In this document: positions 2,200 to 22,691 of the stretch, one piece after another
How the letters are laid out: each line of letters opens with the position of its first letter
Numbering within the stretch: position 1 is the stretch's first letter
Origin: Chloroflexota bacterium
GTDB taxonomy: Bacteria; Chloroflexota; Anaerolineae; UBA2200; JACIWT01
Direction: 5' to 3'
Assembly (NCBI GenBank): GCA_014360825.1
Contig: JACIWT010000019.1
Coordinates: forward strand, 1 to 38,179
Length of the DNA stretch: 38,179 bases
The notes under the pieces: model-generated
Databases searched by the model: none
Told to the model about the DNA's origin: nothing
What the model saw: the letters and a program-made list of their open reading frames with translations, nothing else
Position numbers and translations under genes: made by a program

Positions 2200-4419
2200 A
2201 TGAAAACGAAAGTGTGGATTGCGGGCCTGGTGGCTCTGTTGGTCTTCCCCATGGTGGCGGACGTGGCCCATGCCGACGGTATCATCATCCCCATCCCACC
2301 GCCCCACGTCGTGGAGCCGGTGGACTTGGCCGTCAAGTACCATCGGGTCTCGGTGGTCATCCGCGACCAGGTGGCCACGACGGAGGTGGACCAGGTATTC
2401 GTGAACGAATCCTCCTACCAATTGGAAGGCACCTACATCTTCCCGCTGCCCGAGGAGGCCACTATCTCCGATTTCGCCATGTTCGTGGAGGGCAAACGGC
2501 TGAGTGGCCAGATGCTGAGCGCCGAAGAAGCCCGCCGCATCTACGAGGACATCGTGCGCAGCCGCCGCGACCCGGCGCTGCTGGAATACGTCGGGCGCAA
2601 CGCTTTCCGCGCCACTATCTTCCCCATCGAACCCCACGGCGAAAAGCGCGTGCAACTCCGTTACAGCCAGGTGCTTCTCGCCAACAAGGGTCTCATCAAG
2701 TATGTCTACCCTCTCAACACCGAGCGCTTCTCCAGCAAACCTCTGGAGGATGTGGCTATCACCGTGGAGATCACATCCCGCGAGCCGATCAAGTCCATCT
2801 ACTCGCCCAGCCACAACGTGGCCATCGAGCGTCAGGATGACTACCACGCCACAGTGAGTTTCGAGGCCACCGACATCAAGCCTGATACAGATTTCACTTT
2901 GTATTACACAGTCTCTGAAGAGGACTTGGGGCTGAATCTGCTGTCGTACAAAGATGAGGGTGAGGATGGCTTTTTCCTGCTCCTGGTTGCGCCCAGTGTC
3001 GAGGTAGATGAGAGCCAGGTGGTGGCGAAGGACGTGTTTCTGGTGTTGGACACTTCGGGCAGCATGGAGGGCGAAAAGATCGAGCAGGCCAAGGAAGCCT
3101 TGTACTTCGTGCTCGACCATCTCAATGAGGACGACCGCTTCAACGTCATTGCCTACAACACCGGTGTGACACGCTATGCCCCGGGCCTACGGCCAGCATC
3201 TGAGGCCCGCCAGGCCCGCGACTTCGTGCGCCAATTGGAGGCCGGGGGCGGCACGAACATCCACCGCGCCTTTATGGAGACCCTGCGCATGACCAGCCGC
3301 GATCGCCCACAGGTCATCATCTTCCTCACCGATGGCCTGCCCACCGCCGGCATCACCGACGAGGAGCAGATCATCGCCGACGTGGCTCGTGAGGCGCCGG
3401 AGTCGGTGCGCATCTACGCCTTCGGCGTGGGCTACGACGTGAACACGTGGCTACTGGATACCATCACCAGCGAGCATCGCGGGGCGACGGGCTATGTGGA
3501 GCCGGGCCAGAGCATCGAAGAAGAGGTGTCGGCGTTTTACGCCAAAGTGAGCGCGCCGCTGCTCTCGGATATCGAGTTGCTCGTGGATGGCGTGACAGTG
3601 GACGACATCTACCCGTATCCGCTGCCCGATCTCTTTGCCGGCAGCCAGTTGGTGGTAGCCGGACGCTACCGCCAGGGCGGCCCAGCGACCATCACCCTGC
3701 GCGGCAACCTCAACGATCAGATCAAGGAGTACCGCTACGAAGCCTATTTCATCAAGAACGGCGGCGACGACTTCATCCCCCGCCTGTGGGCCACGCGCAA
3801 GATCGGCTATCTCTTGCGTGAGATCCGGCTCCACGGCCCAGAGAAGGAGTTAATTGACCAGATCGTGAGCCTGGGCGTGCGCTACGGCATCATGACACCC
3901 TACACCTCATTTCTGATTGACGATCGCCAGGACATCCTCACCGATCAGGGCCGCGCTTTCATCGGCCAGGGATACGCAGCCGCGCCAGCGCCCACGGCCG
4001 GCCCCGATGCAGTTGCAGCCAGCAAAGCGCAGGCTGAACTGGGTTCTGCCGAAGTGGTCGGAGGGGGCGAGAGCGAGTCGGCACAGGTCAAGCACGTCCG
4101 CGACAAGGCGTTCGTGCTGCGCGATGGCATCTGGACGGACACCGCCTACAATCCGGACCGGATGAAGCCCCGCACCGTGGTCTTTAGCAGCGATCTCTAC
4201 TTTGACCTGCTGCGAGCGAACCCGCGCTGGGGGGTGTACTTCGCCGTCGGAACCGAAGTGATCGTCGTGCTGGATGGGCAGGCGTACCGTATCACGCGTT
4301 CCGGGGCCGCCGACAGCCCGGCTGTCACGCCGAAAGCGCCGCGCATCGAGCCGCCGGAGGACTACGGATTCATCGGCTATATCTGGGAGATACTCTTCGG
4401 GCACATGAGAAAGGAATGA
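2200..4419 (+). CDS. Secreted VIT and von Willebrand factor A domain protein
   Basis: A 739-residue protein with a signal peptide (residues 1-26, ending VAHA). A VIT domain follows at about 30-170, as in inter-alpha-trypsin inhibitor heavy chains, with characteristic stretches such as YIFPLPEEATISDF and ending near the LRYSQ motif. A vWA domain follows at about 275-455 with an intact metal site: DTSGS (284-288), Thr352 in GGGTNIH and Asp378 in LTDGLPTAG. The C-terminal part contains the conserved GVRYGIMTPYTSFL segment of bacterial VIT-vWA proteins and then an Ala-rich linker. No C-terminal membrane anchor is evident. It probably mediates metal-dependent adhesion outside the membrane. AGGAGGGA precedes the ATG. 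Confidence 0.85.
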   Translation: MKTKVWIAGLVALLVFPMVADVAHADGIIIPIPPPHVVEPVDLAVKYHRVSVVIRDQVATTEVDQVFVNESSYQLEGTYIFPLPEEATISDFAMFVEGKRLSGQMLSAEEARRIYEDIVRSRRDPALLEYVGRNAFRATIFPIEPHGEKRVQLRYSQVLLANKGLIKYVYPLNTERFSSKPLEDVAITVEITSREPIKSIYSPSHNVAIERQDDYHATVSFEATDIKPDTDFTLYYTVSEEDLGLNLLSYKDEGEDGFFLLLVAPSVEVDESQVVAKDVFLVLDTSGSMEGEKIEQAKEALYFVLDHLNEDDRFNVIAYNTGVTRYAPGLRPASEARQARDFVRQLEAGGGTNIHRAFMETLRMTSRDRPQVIIFLTDGLPTAGITDEEQIIADVAREAPESVRIYAFGVGYDVNTWLLDTITSEHRGATGYVEPGQSIEEEVSAFYAKVSAPLLSDIELLVDGVTVDDIYPYPLPDLFAGSQLVVAGRYRQGGPATITLRGNLNDQIKEYRYEAYFIKNGGDDFIPRLWATRKIGYLLREIRLHGPEKELIDQIVSLGVRYGIMTPYTSFLIDDRQDILTDQGRAFIGQGYAAAPAPTAGPDAVAASKAQAELGSAEVVGGGESESAQVKHVRDKAFVLRDGIWTDTAYNPDRMKPRTVVFSSDLYFDLLRANPRWGVYFAVGTEVIVVLDGQAYRITRSGAADSPAVTPKAPRIEPPEDYGFIGYIWEILFGHMRKE

Positions 4420-4457
4420 GGGCGAGAGAATAAGCGAGATAAATCCAGTTAGTGAGT

Positions 4458-4486
4458 TTGTAGTGGTGGAAGCACAGTGCTAAAAT
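4458..4486 (+). promoter_or_regulatory. Promoter placing the transcript start at the GTG of the next gene
   Basis: TTGTAG (4458-4463), a 17-bp spacer and an extended -10, TGC then TAAAAT (4481-4486). The expected transcript start is about 4493, which is the GTG itself, and no ribosome binding site is present. The gene is probably translated from a leaderless message. Confidence 0.5.
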
Positions 4487-4492
4487 GGCACT

Positions 4493-4948
4493 GTGAATCT
4501 CCAGGTGGACCAAAGCGGCAAAATAGAGAAAACGAACCAGGACACTGTCTTGGCCTTCTCAGGTGACGCGGAGTATGCTATTCTCATTCCGGCGAAGGCC
4601 AAACAACAAATCCTTCGGCGACTCCGGTCCACCAAAAGGCGGGGAAAGAGGGTTTATCTGGCCTTCTTTGCTATGGCTCTCTATCATCTCCTTGAGGGCT
4701 GTCTGGATCGGCTAAAATTTGTTGCCATTGACATCGAATACGAGGGACATGAGCACGATATTAAACTGATGTTGCTCAACTTGATTTGGAAGAAATATCC
4801 CCGATACCCAGCCGATCATATCACTTTCAGGCGCGTTGGTAAAAAATCTCGAGTGCACAAAAAGGCTTTGGCGGTCTTCCGAGGCGAAGACGGAGCCGAT
4901 AAAATACTAACACCAGATGACTTTATGGGGCCCTTTATCAGGAAATAG
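4493..4948 (+). CDS. Hypothetical protein, 151 residues
   Basis: The family is not recognised. The protein is basic, soluble and has no signal peptide or membrane segment. Visible blocks are a beta-like N-terminal half with FSGDAEYAILIPAKAKQQIL, a helical stretch rich in Arg and Lys, an acidic strand FVAIDIEYEGHEHDIKLML, and a C-terminal segment KILTPDDFMG. The mix of an acidic IDIEYEG strand and a basic surface could fit a nucleic-acid enzyme of RNase H-like fold, but this is speculation. An in-frame stop lies just upstream at 4481, so the start must be GTG 4493. Base composition is more AT-rich than the vWA gene before it. Confidence 0.65.
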   Translation: MNLQVDQSGKIEKTNQDTVLAFSGDAEYAILIPAKAKQQILRRLRSTKRRGKRVYLAFFAMALYHLLEGCLDRLKFVAIDIEYEGHEHDIKLMLLNLIWKKYPRYPADHITFRRVGKKSRVHKKALAVFRGEDGADKILTPDDFMGPFIRK

Positions 4949-6442: not shown

Positions 6443-9127
6443 TTATCCCAGCACCTCGCGCACTTTGCGCGCCAGTGCGGCAATGGTGAACGGCTTCTGC
6501 AGAAAGGCGATGCCTTTCTCGAAGATGCCATGATGGGCGATGGCGTTGTCGCTGTAGCCTGAGACATAGAGCACCTTGAGGTTAGGGTAGATGACTCGGA
6601 GCCGTTCGGCCAGCGCTTTGCCGCTCATCTTTGGCATCACCACGTCGGTCAGCAGAAGTTGGATACCCTCTGCGCGGGCGGCTATCTGCAGAGCCTCGTC
6701 GGCACTGGCTGCCTCCAGCACGGTGTAACCTTGCTCACGCAGGATGCGGACCATCACCTCTCGGACCGCCGGGTCATCTTCTACCACAAGCACCGTCTCT
6801 GTACCACGTGGCAGGTAACCTTCTTCGTCCTGTCGGGGCAGCCTTTCTGGCTTTTCGCGGACTCGAGGCAGGTAGATCTTGAATGTGGTGCCCTGGCCCG
6901 GTTCACTATATACCCAGATGTAGCCCTCGTGCTGCTTGACAATGCCGTATACAGTCGAAAGGCCTAATCCAGTGCCCTGGCCGATCTCCTTGGTGGTGAA
7001 GAAGGGCTCGAAAAGATGCTCTTTGACTTCTTCGGTCATACCCACGCCGGTGTCGCTGACGGCCAGCAGGACGAAATCGCCAGGGACGGTGCCCACGTGC
7101 TGGCGCACATAATCTTCATCCAGCGTCACATTGGCGGTCTCGATGGTGAGTTTGCCGCCCCGGGGCATGGCGTCGCGGGCGTTCACGACCAGGTTGATGA
7201 GGGCTTGCTCGATTTGACCGGGGTCCACTTTGACCAGGCCCAAGTCAGGCGCGGGAACGGTGACCAATTCGATATCGTCGCCGAGCAGACGGCGCAACAT
7301 CTTATCCATGTTGAGGATAAGGTCATTGAGGTTGATCACCCGCGGGGCGATGATTTGGCGGCGGCCCAGGGCTAGCAGTTGGCGGGTGAGATTAGCCCCC
7401 TGTTCGGCGATTTTCACGATTTGCTCCAGATCTTCGCGTACTGGGTCGTCGAGCCGCAGCGTATCTATGGCTAGCGAAGCGTAGCCGGTAATGGCCATGA
7501 GCAGATTGTTGAATTCGTGGGCTACGCCGCCGGCCAGACGACCGACGGTTTCCATTCTCTGGGAATAGCGCAACTGCTCCTCGAGGCGTTTGTGTTCGGT
7601 GATGTCGCGCACCACACTCACCCAGCCTGTACGGTTTCCTTGCTCATCTTCCAGAGGCGTGACGCTGTGCTCGGTTGGGAAGATCGTCCCGTCCTTGCGT
7701 TTCATCTGGAATTCGAAGAGATGTAAGAAACCGCGCTTTTCCACAGCGGAGAAAAGATGCCGTCGGAACTGCTCTAACGCGGCCCGGTTCACGTGTAGGA
7801 ACGCGGTTGTCCTTCCTAACATCTCCTCTCGATTGTAACCGAAAATCCGTGAGGCAGCGTGGTTACAGTCCAAGATCTGTGTGGTCTTGGCGTCCATGAT
7901 GAAAACTGCGTCTTCCAGGCTGTGGAGCGTCCTTTCGAGCAATTGTTGGCTTTGGCGAAGCCTCTCCTCTGCTCTCTTGCGTTCCGCCAATTCCCTCTGC
8001 GCCACCTCGTAGAGCCTGGCATTCTCAAAGGCGATCGCTGCCTGCGTGGCAAAGGCCGAGAGAACGCGCAAATCGTCTTCGTTGAAGGCATTGTAAGAAG
8101 CGACGCTGTCCAAGGTGATGGTACCAATGGTTTTTCCCTTCACCACCAGCGGGACACAGATGGCCGACTTCTCCTCCTCCACCTCGGGCAGTTCGATCAC
8201 CTTCGTTCTGGGGTCGGTTTTGACGTTGGCCAGGATAAGGGGTTGATTGTGAGCGAAAACCCACCCGGTGTAACCTTCGCCTACCCGGAAAGTGGCCGCC
8301 TCCATCACCTCGCGGCTGAAGCCATGGCCGGCTCTCATCACCAGCACGTTGCGCTGCTCATCCAACAAATGCAAGGAGCCTTTTTGTGCCGCAGGGACGG
8401 CATGGACGGCAGCATCTATAATCCGCTGCAGGGTTTCCTCCAACTTCAGGTTGCCGACTACGCTCGTGCTGGTTTGGTAAAGCGACTCTAATTCCTGCAC
8501 CCTACGGCGTGTTTCCTCGTACAAACGGGTGTTTGCCACCGCGATCGCGGCATGGTTGGCGAGAAGGGTGAGCAACTGCAGGTCCTTCGGCGTGAAACGG
8601 CGCGTTTCCACATTGTGCAGGACGTGAATCACCCCGATCACTTGTCCTTGCCAGAGCATCGGTGCGCTGAGGACGGCGGTGAAGGGCTGGTCCTGCTCGT
8701 AGGTAGGGGCTCGGCCGGGCCAGATGCGATAATCATCAATGATCAGGGGTTGTCCGGTCTGGGCGACGACGCCGGCCGCGCCTTCGCCGTATTTGAGCAC
8801 TACGCCGGTGTAATCGTGGGGAGTGTTGTAACTCACCACGCAGCGAACCTCTTGCCGCTCGGGGTCACAGAGATATAGGCCGCCGCCAGGAGCGTCCAGC
8901 AGCCGGGTGGCTCGTTCGACGATAGTCTGGAGCAGGGTGGGCAAATCATGCGGGGCGGCGATATCGAGGACAATGGCCTGCAGGGTAGCCAGTTCTTCCA
9001 CTTGACGACGCAGTGTCTCTTCTGTGCACTTGGGCTCGCTGACTGCGTCTCCTAATGGAGATGGGCTGGAGAAGGGGTGCTCCAGGTCCCCCGTTGGTCG
9101 GGCGTCGGTCTCACTCACGTCTTTCAT
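6443..9127 (-). CDS. Hybrid histidine kinase: GAF-GAF-PAS-HisKA-HATPase-receiver
   Basis: An 894-residue soluble sensor kinase without membrane segments. Domains in order: GAF 1 (about 60-200), GAF 2 (about 222-372), a short coiled coil, PAS (about 395-510), HisKA with phospho-acceptor His537 in GGVAHEFNN, HATPase with DTGVGM and GTGLGLSTVYG, and a C-terminal receiver with Asp828 in LLLTDVVMP. The GAF domains probably sense a small ligand or redox state, and the HEFNN H-box is typical of kinases that pass phosphate to an attached receiver. No DNA-binding output is encoded alongside, so a separate phosphotransfer partner is expected. ATG 9127 has GGGAGAG upstream; the longer TTG start at 9160 is less likely. 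Confidence 0.9.
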   Translation of the reverse strand: MKDVSETDARPTGDLEHPFSSPSPLGDAVSEPKCTEETLRRQVEELATLQAIVLDIAAPHDLPTLLQTIVERATRLLDAPGGGLYLCDPERQEVRCVVSYNTPHDYTGVVLKYGEGAAGVVAQTGQPLIIDDYRIWPGRAPTYEQDQPFTAVLSAPMLWQGQVIGVIHVLHNVETRRFTPKDLQLLTLLANHAAIAVANTRLYEETRRRVQELESLYQTSTSVVGNLKLEETLQRIIDAAVHAVPAAQKGSLHLLDEQRNVLVMRAGHGFSREVMEAATFRVGEGYTGWVFAHNQPLILANVKTDPRTKVIELPEVEEEKSAICVPLVVKGKTIGTITLDSVASYNAFNEDDLRVLSAFATQAAIAFENARLYEVAQRELAERKRAEERLRQSQQLLERTLHSLEDAVFIMDAKTTQILDCNHAASRIFGYNREEMLGRTTAFLHVNRAALEQFRRHLFSAVEKRGFLHLFEFQMKRKDGTIFPTEHSVTPLEDEQGNRTGWVSVVRDITEHKRLEEQLRYSQRMETVGRLAGGVAHEFNNLLMAITGYASLAIDTLRLDDPVREDLEQIVKIAEQGANLTRQLLALGRRQIIAPRVINLNDLILNMDKMLRRLLGDDIELVTVPAPDLGLVKVDPGQIEQALINLVVNARDAMPRGGKLTIETANVTLDEDYVRQHVGTVPGDFVLLAVSDTGVGMTEEVKEHLFEPFFTTKEIGQGTGLGLSTVYGIVKQHEGYIWVYSEPGQGTTFKIYLPRVREKPERLPRQDEEGYLPRGTETVLVVEDDPAVREVMVRILREQGYTVLEAASADEALQIAARAEGIQLLLTDVVMPKMSGKALAERLRVIYPNLKVLYVSGYSDNAIAHHGIFEKGIAFLQKPFTIAALARKVREVLG

Positions 9128-10572: not shown

Positions 10573-10628
10573 GTGGGAGCAATCTCCAGATTGCGATTGT
10601 TGGGTCGCTGTCTGGAGACGGCTCCCAC
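10573..10628. repeat. 56-bp hairpin repeat, copy 1 (loop TTGTTGGG)
   Basis: Nested stems: outer arms GTGGGAGC/GCTCCCAC, middle arms TCTCCAGA/TCTGGAGA, inner GCGA/TCGC, separated by small symmetric internal loops, with an 8-nt loop. The outer stem extends by 5 more bp in this copy (10568-10633). A second copy of identical length lies at 19861-19916. This one sits between the nitroreductase and ferritin-like genes. Confidence 0.9.
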
Positions 10629-19715: not shown

Positions 19716-19759
19716 CCACGGGGAGGCGAAGGAGGCGGGGCATTTAGGGAAGAGGGAAT

Positions 19760-21307
19760 ATGAACCCCGAAGCACGAGGGAAAACAGCCCTGGTTGCACT
19801 CATCGTGGTACTGGCAGTGATGGCTGCCTTGGGCGCTGCGCCTGCCTTGGCTGGCCAGTCGTGGGAGCAATCTCCAGATTGCGACCAGAGTATCGCCGTC
19901 TGGAGACGGCTCCCACTTGTGAATACCCGCCACCGAATGGAATTCGGTGGCTACGCCCGGGACGTAGGGGCGACCGGCCAGTCGCCCTTACTGGAAATCG
20001 CATTTCCGGGCGGCGTGGGTAGCGAGATCCCGGCCCACGTCGGTCGCCGGTGGATGAATCCACCGGCTGGTCTTGTCCAGTCCCGCTGGGACTGGGCCGC
20101 GATGGGCCGCCCAACCCATTCACAAGCGTTTCCATCCACCCAGGTTGCCCCGACCGGATACATCTCCTACACCATCCGCCCCCAGGACATCGTCTCCCAA
20201 AGCGAGATCCTCGCCAACCCCTACTACGCCGAGAAAATCAACTCGGTCTATTGGACCCGGCCCTTCTATCAGACGGAGCGACAAAGGCAAAGGGTAACCG
20301 ATGAGTGCGTTTTCCAGGAAAGTCTCTGGCGAATCCTGGTGCGGAATGATCCCGTTTGGGCCTCCACCACGGACCCTGACCGGCGACGGCTGGAGGTGCT
20401 CAGAGTGGCGGCGATGAACCCCGCCCTGGCGGAGAGGATGCCGGGATTTAGAAATGAGGCGCTTCCCGATCAGGTCCTTTGGCGGCAGATTGTGGTGGAG
20501 TGGCTGGAGAGGATTCAGGAGGACCACCCTCACGCCTTCCGATACTGGCTGGAGAGGTGTTTGGAGGGAGCAAAGATGGATGCGGGGGTTGTGGGGACGG
20601 TCATCCATCTCCCCACCCCCGAACGGCCAACGCCGAGCGCCGAAGCGCCGGAACTTTTGGAGTGGGGGCTGAAATGGGATGCTGGCCGCAAAGTCTATGT
20701 CACCGTGGACAACCGCTACGGCCTGCCCGTCGGCAATGAGGCAGCCTGGTATTTCCCTAAAATTTCCTATACAGTGGACCGCGGAGACGGGAACCCAGTT
20801 AACTACACTGGAGCCATTGGCTTTTCCCCATGGATGGCCGAGGCTTTATGGAAGGCGACCGGTAAACTCGTTTTGCCAGTTGAATTTCCCGAGGGTCAAG
20901 AAGTGAACTTTACTATTAATCAACTTTCTGTAGTTTACCAAGGAAAGGAATATTTCTGGATTGGCCTTAAACTGCCGATTGGAGCTTATCTTGTCGCCCC
21001 GCTTTCCACCGAAAAGGCCAGGTACGGGAATTTTTTCACAAATGAAGGGAGCCCGGGCGATGGCGTCCTGTTACCAATGGGAGGTGGTAACGAACTTCAG
21101 ATAGGTGCGAGAGGAGGAAACAGTCGAACCTACCAGTCTCCTCAGATTGCGGTAGGAACGCGCCTTTTTGAGATCACTTCCACCAATGAGTTTTTACAAC
21201 AAAAGGGCTCAAATGCTTGGGTTGGAGAATTTGGCGACGATATTCCTTTTACTCCTGAAACATTCTTTTGGCCAAAAGCAGGAGTGGTGGGTTTTATTCA
21301 CCAATAG
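19760..21307 (+). CDS. Secreted protein of unknown function with an in-frame palindrome array
   Basis: A 515-residue protein. Residues 1-32 are a clear signal peptide ending APALAG. Residues 34-112 are encoded by a run of palindromes (19861-20095) and look like low-quality sequence rather than a fold. From about residue 130 on, the sequence looks like a normal domain, with helical segments followed by a beta-rich C-terminal half (for instance FPEGQEVNFTINQLSVVY). I do not recognise the family. Base composition drops from about 58% GC to about 47% GC near 20740, inside the gene, so it may be a chimera. The ATG has AGAGGGA close upstream. Confidence 0.65.
   Translation: MNPEARGKTALVALIVVLAVMAALGAAPALAGQSWEQSPDCDQSIAVWRRLPLVNTRHRMEFGGYARDVGATGQSPLLEIAFPGGVGSEIPAHVGRRWMNPPAGLVQSRWDWAAMGRPTHSQAFPSTQVAPTGYISYTIRPQDIVSQSEILANPYYAEKINSVYWTRPFYQTERQRQRVTDECVFQESLWRILVRNDPVWASTTDPDRRRLEVLRVAAMNPALAERMPGFRNEALPDQVLWRQIVVEWLERIQEDHPHAFRYWLERCLEGAKMDAGVVGTVIHLPTPERPTPSAEAPELLEWGLKWDAGRKVYVTVDNRYGLPVGNEAAWYFPKISYTVDRGDGNPVNYTGAIGFSPWMAEALWKATGKLVLPVEFPEGQEVNFTINQLSVVYQGKEYFWIGLKLPIGAYLVAPLSTEKARYGNFFTNEGSPGDGVLLPMGGGNELQIGARGGNSRTYQSPQIAVGTRLFEITSTNEFLQQKGSNAWVGEFGDDIPFTPETFFWPKAGVVGFIHQ
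19861..19916. repeat. 56-bp hairpin repeat, copy 2 (loop CCAGAGTA)
   Basis: Same nested stems as at 10573-10628: GTGGGAGC/GCTCCCAC, TCTCCAGA/TCTGGAGA, GCGA/TCGC. Apart from one internal-loop base, all 48 positions outside the 8-nt loop match copy 1. Here it is translated in frame right after a signal peptide, giving WEQSPDC...WRRLPL. Confidence 0.9.
19929..20095. repeat. Cluster of six palindromes inside a coding sequence
   Basis: Six hairpins in a row: 10-bp arms at 19929-19951 around GGA; GTAGGGGCGAC with GTCGCCCTTAC (19964-19991); GGAAAT/ATTTCC (19993-20007); CGTGGG/CCCACG (20014-20039); 10-bp arms at 20046-20067 around GA; and CCAGTCCC/GGGACTGG (20077-20095). Together with the 56-bp repeat before it, a 235-bp stretch is nearly all palindromic, yet the frame stays open. 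Confidence 0.85.
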
Positions 21308-21321
21308 ATTAATTTCTTATC

Positions 21322-21351
21322 TTGACAACGGTTTTCCCTCTAAGTTATCCT
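21322..21351 (+). promoter_or_regulatory. Candidate promoter of the M23-like gene
   Basis: A perfect TTGACA (21322-21327), an 18-bp spacer and TATCCT (21346-21351). The predicted transcript start falls at about 21358, next to the GTG at 21359. With no ribosome binding site in view, a leaderless message is likely. Confidence 0.45.
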
Positions 21352-21358
21352 AAGTTTA

Positions 21359-21880
21359 GTGTTAGAGACTGCCCAAAATACCACCAAAATCACAAAATAT
21401 CTCTTGGTTGTTCTGGTAGTCCTGATATTAGTCCTCCTTGGTCTTAACCTCGCTCTTTCTCGCTATGGAGCCTTTTGGGAGAAAAAGAGCCGGTTTGGTC
21501 TTTCCTGCCCGGCGCCGAAAGAGTTTTGCTCAAAGGGGAAGAAAATAACTTTAGGAGGAAGATACGTCGGGGTTGGCTATCTTTTACCTGCAGGAACATC
21601 TTTCTTGGCGGCGATGAATGGAGAATTAAGGTACGGGCACGTGGTGATGAATCCGGAATATGGCGGGGAAACTTTTCAAACGGTTTCTGTCCTTAATGGC
21701 CGGGACCATCTGATTTATACCTACTCGGGAAATCCCGAATACAGGACGGGGATGGTTTCCAAAGGTGAACCGATAGGCAAAGTAGACCAAAGACTTTCTC
21801 CTTATGGAGAAGTGAACTTGCTTTTTCTTTATGAGAAGGGAGGAAAGCCGGTAGAGATTTCCAGCAAAGATTTTGACTGA
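21359..21880 (+). CDS. Membrane-anchored protein with degenerate M23/LytM-like domain
   Basis: A 173-residue protein with a short cytoplasmic N-terminus, one membrane helix (about residues 14-34) and an outer domain. The outer part has the strand order of M23 peptidases: LLPAGTSFLAAMNGEL, then RDHLIYTYSGNP, then VSKGEPIGKVD and GEVNLLFLY. The metal ligands are not seen: no HxxxD start and no HLHFE end. It is therefore probably an inactive binding or scaffolding version. Two Cys residues (50 and 57) could form a disulfide. It has AT-rich codon use like the next gene, which begins 2 nt after its stop. Confidence 0.6.
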   Translation: MLETAQNTTKITKYLLVVLVVLILVLLGLNLALSRYGAFWEKKSRFGLSCPAPKEFCSKGKKITLGGRYVGVGYLLPAGTSFLAAMNGELRYGHVVMNPEYGGETFQTVSVLNGRDHLIYTYSGNPEYRTGMVSKGEPIGKVDQRLSPYGEVNLLFLYEKGGKPVEISSKDFD

Positions 21881-21881
21881 A

Positions 21882-22691
21882 ATGAAAAAAGTTGCTGTTG
21901 CCTTGTTTTTAGTTTTGGCTATCTTTTTGATTTTGCCCCAACCGGTTGAGGCTGGGGTTTATTGTCCGGATGGCTATACTAAATGTGGGCTTCAGCCTGG
22001 AGCAGGATGTTACGGCGATGCGGGATGTGAGGAGGCCTGTTGTACCGGCCCAAAACCTGCAGACTTTTGTTGTGGGGCTTCCAATTGTGGCTCTGTTCCT
22101 GCCTGGAGCTATGCCTGGGCAATTTGTTGCAGAAAGAGAGATCTCCTTGAGACCAAGTTTGAATTTGGTTGGGAGACGACGGATTGTAATACCGCTGACC
22201 GCTGTGATGAGGCGAGGACTCCTGCCGGAAGTTATGATGCCGATGGGGATATTGCCTACGGTCTTTGTGATATTTCCCAAGGGCTTTTGAACTGCGGACG
22301 ATATGGGGCGCATTATAAGAAATGCTGTCGGGTGGCGGGGGCAGTTCAGTCGGGAGCAAGGCTGACTGGCGCTACCAGTTCCTGCAGCAATGGGACTTGT
22401 AACTCACCGGGGGTTTGTGTCCGAGCCGCCGATGTTTGCGATTCTAACAAATGCCTTGATTCCTGGGATGGCTATTGCTGGAGTTTGAAGGCCTGTGGGG
22501 CGCCGCCGGGGGCGACGCCGACACCGACGATCCCGCCCGCTACTTATATTTGTATCAAAGGAGGGAGCGGGGCTGACCCGAAGGTCTGCGATGCTTGGTT
22601 AGATGTCAACGTTCCTTCCGAAGCAAATATCGGCGGTGTGGCAATATCCGCTCAGTCCACAAATTCCGCCTTTGTCTCCTGCTCGGTGTGA
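21882..22691 (+). CDS. Cysteine-rich secreted protein of unknown function
   Basis: A 269-residue protein with a signal peptide (1-25, ending PVEAG). It has 27 Cys residues, about one in ten, including four Cys-Cys pairs, so a mature form with many disulfides or bound metal is likely. A short Pro/Thr linker (ATPTPTIPPAT) separates the Cys-rich part from a C-terminal segment beginning YICIKGGSG, which looks like the start of a further domain and ends abruptly. This suggests a truncated C-terminus. I do not recognise the family. The ATG at 21882 overlaps no good ribosome binding site and may depend on translation of the gene before it. Confidence 0.6.
   Translation: MKKVAVALFLVLAIFLILPQPVEAGVYCPDGYTKCGLQPGAGCYGDAGCEEACCTGPKPADFCCGASNCGSVPAWSYAWAICCRKRDLLETKFEFGWETTDCNTADRCDEARTPAGSYDADGDIAYGLCDISQGLLNCGRYGAHYKKCCRVAGAVQSGARLTGATSSCSNGTCNSPGVCVRAADVCDSNKCLDSWDGYCWSLKACGAPPGATPTPTIPPATYICIKGGSGADPKVCDAWLDVNVPSEANIGGVAISAQSTNSAFVSCSV

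Follow-up and report, generated by a model that had tools for sequence, protein, structure and literature searches.

Intragenic REP repeats of the GTAG/CGTC type have been described as elements that lie singly or in clusters inside ORFs and are read in frame (BMC Genomics 2013, PMC3733652). The same study reported in-frame clusters coding 43-82 residues in Thauera and R. conorii, noted GTAG repeats in Chloroflexi, and warned that N-terminal REP clusters may reflect misannotated starts. The classic in-frame case is that of the Rickettsia palindromic elements (RPEs), which are about 150 bp long and are found in many unrelated genes (Ogata et al. 2000, 2002, reviewed in PMC10969869). Here we describe a window of 38,179 nucleotides, contig C19 of a 2.89-Mb, 64-contig metagenome-assembled genome, in which a chain of seven hairpins is carried in frame by a gene for a putative exported protein of 515 aa.

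This chain resembles the GTAG/CGTC clusters in consisting of REP-type palindromes in frame, and direct reading shows the GTAG tag at the foot of hairpins 2 and 3, the reading being ambiguous for hairpins 4-7. It differs from them in that it lies directly behind a signal peptide, is common to a paralogous family and looks like part of a mosaic, and in that the hairpin 1 unit begins with GTGG, not GTAG. With the RPEs it shares dispersed palindromic DNA kept in frame within proteins, presumably at tolerant places, but here many short REPs are chained in one gene family, and no clean empty homologue is seen. The palindromic amphipathic repeats known as PARCELs (PMC2996958) are likewise coding DNA with dyad symmetry, and PARCEL surface-protein genes are shuffled in the genome; however, in PARCELs a single protein motif is repeated in tandem, whereas the present hairpins are mutually unlike and their product looks disordered. 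The general principle is thus already published for in-frame REP clusters and RPEs, and what is new here is the presence of the chain across a whole family, its location at the junction with the signal peptide and the mosaic pattern that surrounds it. The locus provides a natural example of normally extragenic REP-kind repeats turned into protein sequence across a family, at a tolerant place after the export signal, and offers the testable idea that repeats of this sort could reassort the 5' ends of genes for exported proteins.

The gene occupies 19760-21307 of the forward strand, to which all features below belong unless stated otherwise. A Shine-Dalgarno-like region, AGAGGGA (19745-19759), precedes the start codon, and the homology of most paralogues begins here. 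The start codon and signal-peptide-like N-terminus (19760-19855, residues 1-32, ending in APALAG) include a helix predicted at residues 3-25, and DNA identity between copies ranges from 53 to 99% over this part. The repeat-encoded segment follows at 19861-20095 (about residues 34-112), and 20098-20190 (about residues 113-143, ending in APTGYISYTIRP) is the end of the segment common to those paralogues that reach so far. A helical domain is predicted at 20183-20578 (residues 142-273), for which no relative was found outside the genome itself, and the C-terminal part (20600-21307) diverges strongly from one paralogue to another; the only region with an outside homologue, L063, is the first 100 residues of this part. 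Searches of Pfam gave no family for the protein or for several of its relatives, and NCBIfam gave none for the protein and its downstream genes.

The original prediction had placed seven palindromes at 19861-20095, translated in frame behind a signal peptide, and both the chain and its position were confirmed. Direct reading and folding located seven hairpins head to tail at 19861-20094, with hairpins 4 and 5 the weakest. RNA folding of 19850-20130 gave -158 kcal/mol, while shuffles averaged -118 (z -7.17) and 0 of 200 were as stable, and the chain folded as DNA was also well beyond shuffles (z -7.0). Hairpin 1 (19861-19916) comprises two hairpins within an outer stem and is an inverted pair of 22-nt REP-type units, GTGGGAGCNNTCTCCAGANNGC, which form a repeat dispersed throughout the genome; the left unit (19861-19882) is an AA/TT version and the right unit (19895-19916, minus strand) a CG/CG version, both of which preserve pairing. 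Hairpin 2 (19929-19951, GCCACCGAATGGAATTCGGTGGC) is followed by TAC and is thus GTAG-tagged on the minus strand; it has relatives elsewhere and in the chains of contig C4. Relatives of hairpin 3 (19964-19991, GTAGGGGCGACCGGCCAGTCGCCCTTAC) occur in chains of C4 and C22. Hairpin 4 (19993-20009, GGAAATCGCATTTCC) is short, and hairpin 5 (20012-20041) shows the greatest decay between copies. Solo relatives of hairpin 6 (20046-20067, GCCGGTGGATGAATCCACCGGC) were found at C4:84379 and C8:44644, while those of hairpin 7 (20075-20097, CCAGTCCCGCTGGGACTGG) adjoin hairpin 6 at C4:84346 and also occur in the C4 chains.

These hairpins are REP/BIME-type repeats, being dispersed, mostly intergenic and, for hairpin 1, paired in inverted orientation. 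The hairpin 1 unit had 55 genome matches at up to 2 mismatches and its reversed control none; six genomes of the same order contained 0-2 matches each, all with 2 mismatches. The gene family, with its duplications upstream, accounts for about half of the 55. The other sites, solo copies outside the family, lie between the longest ORFs or at their very edge, as anticipated by the claim that such repeats are normally intergenic. A cruder automatic ORF call, made on the window and portions of two contigs, placed 9 of 18 units within ORFs; apart from the present gene, these were mostly short ORFs or the edges of ORFs. One solo hairpin 1 is located elsewhere in the window (10573-10628, no strand assigned), and the inverted pairing of its units is repeated at many other sites of the genome. 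Scattered relatives of hairpins 2, 3, 6 and 7 were also found. In a 400-kb sample from two contigs, chains similar to that of the gene fill stretches of C4 around 4.0-4.5 and 7.1-7.7 kb. The corresponding locus, L108, carries long chains of many hairpin repeats at 3950-4560 and 7150-7680, and the first 200 kb of C4 held 100 hairpins against 26 in the first 200 kb of C2.

BIMEs and REPINs, with their RAYT transposases (PMC3116915, PMC2817692), are similar in that hairpin 1 is an inverted REP pair and that RAYT-like genes of this genome lie between hairpin pairs, but BIMEs are typically intergenic, and no RAYT flanked by the hairpin 1 unit was found among the four Y1_Tnp (RAYT-like) matches of the genome; a weaker or missing RAYT is possible. 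Two of these matches exceeded the Pfam cut-off, three lay between paired hairpins of other kinds, and near the fourth stood one unrelated hairpin. The three enclosed genes (L084, C4:60495; L085, C4:33693; L086, C8:139653) are each flanked on both sides by a copy of a distinct hairpin of their own, in a REPtron-like arrangement; these hairpins start with TTGCGAGGGTTCC, TTCCGAAGTCTT and TAGGACAAATTG, respectively, and two of them recur (C22 near 12840 and C4 near 7340).

The locus departs from the original prediction in that the chain is not an accident of a single gene: it is common to at least seven paralogues. DNA and protein searches found further copies of the gene in the same genome on C51, C23, C20, C10, C21, C41, C16 and C24, and its 3' parts on C8, C26 and C32; the majority of copies end at contig ends, as repeats would. 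In the copies on C51, C23, C20, C10, C21 and C41, most or all of the hairpins lie in the same frame, free of stops and behind a signal peptide, whereas C16 has hairpins 1-2 and thereafter a different repeat. Differences in chain length, +3 in C21 and -21 and +66 in C41, are all multiples of three. The 66 bp in C41 (L026) come from a second repeat type (CCTCACCCCC...ATGGAGAGGGGG) nested in frame in hairpin 1, and hairpin 1 of C24 (L028) contains a similar nested repeat adjoining a run of N.

The 515-aa frame is open all through the hairpin chain. About 10% of chain shuffles are open in a given frame, as are about 14% of 237-nt windows from four other repeat chains of the same genome, and the open frame taken alone is weak evidence of coding. 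The openness nevertheless goes beyond chance, because only in the protein frame, out of the six, do all seven full copies (C19, C51, C23, C10, C21, C20 and C41) lack a stop, and because the length changes keep the frame. A misannotated start, with the chain as 5' UTR, was rejected in view of the ribosome site and signal-peptide-like sequence that lie upstream in frame, in the copies as well; the upstream signal peptide likewise answers the caveat raised for N-terminal REP clusters. The counter-case considered in the original prediction, a true start past the chain with its own signal peptide, did not materialise, as no second signal peptide lies downstream in the frame. With start and signal peptide upstream, the helical domain downstream and one frame in seven copies, the locus has the features of an in-frame intragenic REP cluster.

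Silent divergence was lowest in the chain, with pS of 0.10 for hairpins 1-2 and 0.18 for hairpins 3-7, compared with 0.41 for the signal peptide, 0.21-0.23 immediately past the chain and 0.59 for the C-terminus. pN/pS was 0.45-0.50 for the chain against 0.64 for the signal peptide and 0.24 for the helical domain. Variable columns of the chain were distributed over the codon positions as 18/12/21, and since this third-position bias is weak, protein-level selection on the chain is not demonstrated. The original prediction held that homologues with the same segment and normal protein conservation would count against capture; the segment is indeed present in paralogues, but its conservation is at the DNA level and not protein-like.

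One explanation of such conservation is that the chain acts as nucleic acid, either as mRNA hairpins that affect decay or pause translation after the export signal, or as a protein-binding DNA repeat, its translation being incidental. The arms of hairpin 1 are almost invariant, silent sites included, and every copy has a strong predicted fold, as this explanation would expect. However, among the six copies compared no stem pair had a compensatory double change, and most variable pairs were broken in at least one copy; the arms are kept equally in solo copies elsewhere, for which recent spread suffices. We regard a nucleic-acid function as improbable. A conserved structured RNA was rejected in view of the absent compensatory changes together with the lack of any Rfam family near threshold. 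At the level of sequence comparison, neither strong protein selection nor RNA-structure selection was seen on the chain. The simplest reading is that the chain probably encodes a disordered linker: AlphaFold pLDDT was about 20-26 over residues 31-130 against about 45-81 over 151-270, in a model that was poor overall (mean pLDDT 38, 7 sequences, with fewer aligned sequences for the helical domain, 142-273). The proposal of a linker of about 79 residues behind the export signal agrees with this predicted lack of structure, while the accompanying proposal of capture by insertion we can only infer.

Insertion of the chain into a pre-existing protein stays an inference because no homologue missing just residues 34-112 was found in the same genome, in sampled genomes of the class and phylum, or in one genome-contig scan. 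Homologues of this kind were what the original prediction had looked to for a sign of insertion; the sole outside relative, L063, differs over the whole N-terminal half. Two weak matches to chain-like coding in other genomes (L090, L091) proved on inspection to have no repeat arrays, and viral contigs contained no independent copies of the chain.

Comparison of the paralogues along the gene revealed a peak of DNA identity at the chain. Upstream of the ribosome site, identity is at background for most pairs; it is 53-89% in the signal-peptide region, with the exception of C10-C24 at 99%, then reaches 90-100% in hairpin 1 where copies are intact and, among full copies, 83-99% over hairpins 2-7. 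Past the chain, identity falls for C23 after 20190, to 60%, and for C20 after 20700, to 50%. The abrupt rise at the left edge of hairpin 1, with signal peptides just 53-89% alike in most pairs, could suggest that the chain, together with the beginning of the body, spread as one composite mobile element to a number of related genes with signal peptides. The signal peptides are, however, still recognisably related, the shared unit runs past the last hairpin into coding sequence as far as 20190, and the four transposase-like genes are not flanked by the hairpins of the gene, so that parallel insertion seems very improbable to us.

Trees built from different parts of the gene were in conflict. A C19+C23+C10 clade is rejected by the chain tree (p 0.008), as are C19+C21 (p 0.010) and C23+C41 (p 0.040) by the tree of the signal peptide, all of these clades having been picked after seeing the trees. 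C10 and C24, near-identical in the signal-peptide region, have different hairpin 1 loops. Tandem leader modules, each a signal peptide with a repeat, lie upstream of the genes on C23 and C20 (L021 3100-3470; L025 2560-2960, minus strand), and on C23 one such short ORF ends in a stop codon that overlaps with the start ATG of the full gene. C10 and C24 carry an additional hairpin 1 upstream. This mosaic pattern would fit recombination or gene conversion at the repeats. Some of the mosaicism could come from assembly chimerism in the metagenome-assembled genome, which is the main caveat, since most copies lie at contig ends, one contains a stretch of Ns, and an 89-bp exact match over hairpins 1-2 is common to the window copy and C51.

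These observations can be set against simple descent, by which the family expanded with the chain in place as an inert linker, without recombination, and low divergence came from chance, variation in mutation rate or in part an assembly artefact. The chain occupies the same position and frame in all copies, and rapid divergence is frequent in the C-terminal domains of secreted proteins, as simple descent would have it. On the other hand, the same pairs show a two- to fourfold gap in silent divergence between signal peptide and chain, the trees of these two parts conflict, and C10 and C24, 99% alike in the signal-peptide region, differ in the hairpin 1 loop. We consider simple descent unlikely.

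The explanation that we judge reasonably probable is that a REP/BIME chain was captured in frame, is translated as a linker and also provides shared homology for exchange between family copies. A gene for an exported protein would have captured a REP/BIME-type chain between its signal-peptide and body parts, either as it expanded into a family or earlier. Its translation would give a flexible linker of about 79 residues, which may be tolerated because it sits after the export signal and ahead of the folded domain. Hairpin repeats, hairpin 1 above all, front every copy and lie upstream of several, so the chain could offer the copies a common stretch of DNA homology. Recombination or gene conversion within it would hold the chains similar, with the signal peptides and C-terminal domains free to diverge or be swapped. 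A bolder version, which we put forward tentatively as a possibility, is that the chain is a recombination joint for the exchange of modules of ribosome site and signal peptide, and of C-terminal domains, the joint staying readable in frame. If this were true, selfish repeats would have been turned into a connector of cassettes that serves the variation of surface proteins.

In complete loci, two further genes follow the chain-bearing gene. The first (21359-21880) encodes a small protein with an N-terminal membrane segment and has an equal position in C20, C23, C8, C26, C32 and L063, and the second (21873-22691) encodes an exported Cys-rich protein, the third gene of a repeated cassette. This three-gene cassette of exported, small membrane-anchored and Cys-rich exported proteins (window 19760-22691; L021, L025, L064, L065, L066, L063) had no Pfam match among those scanned; it is present in at least six copies in the genome and is also found in the relative L063.
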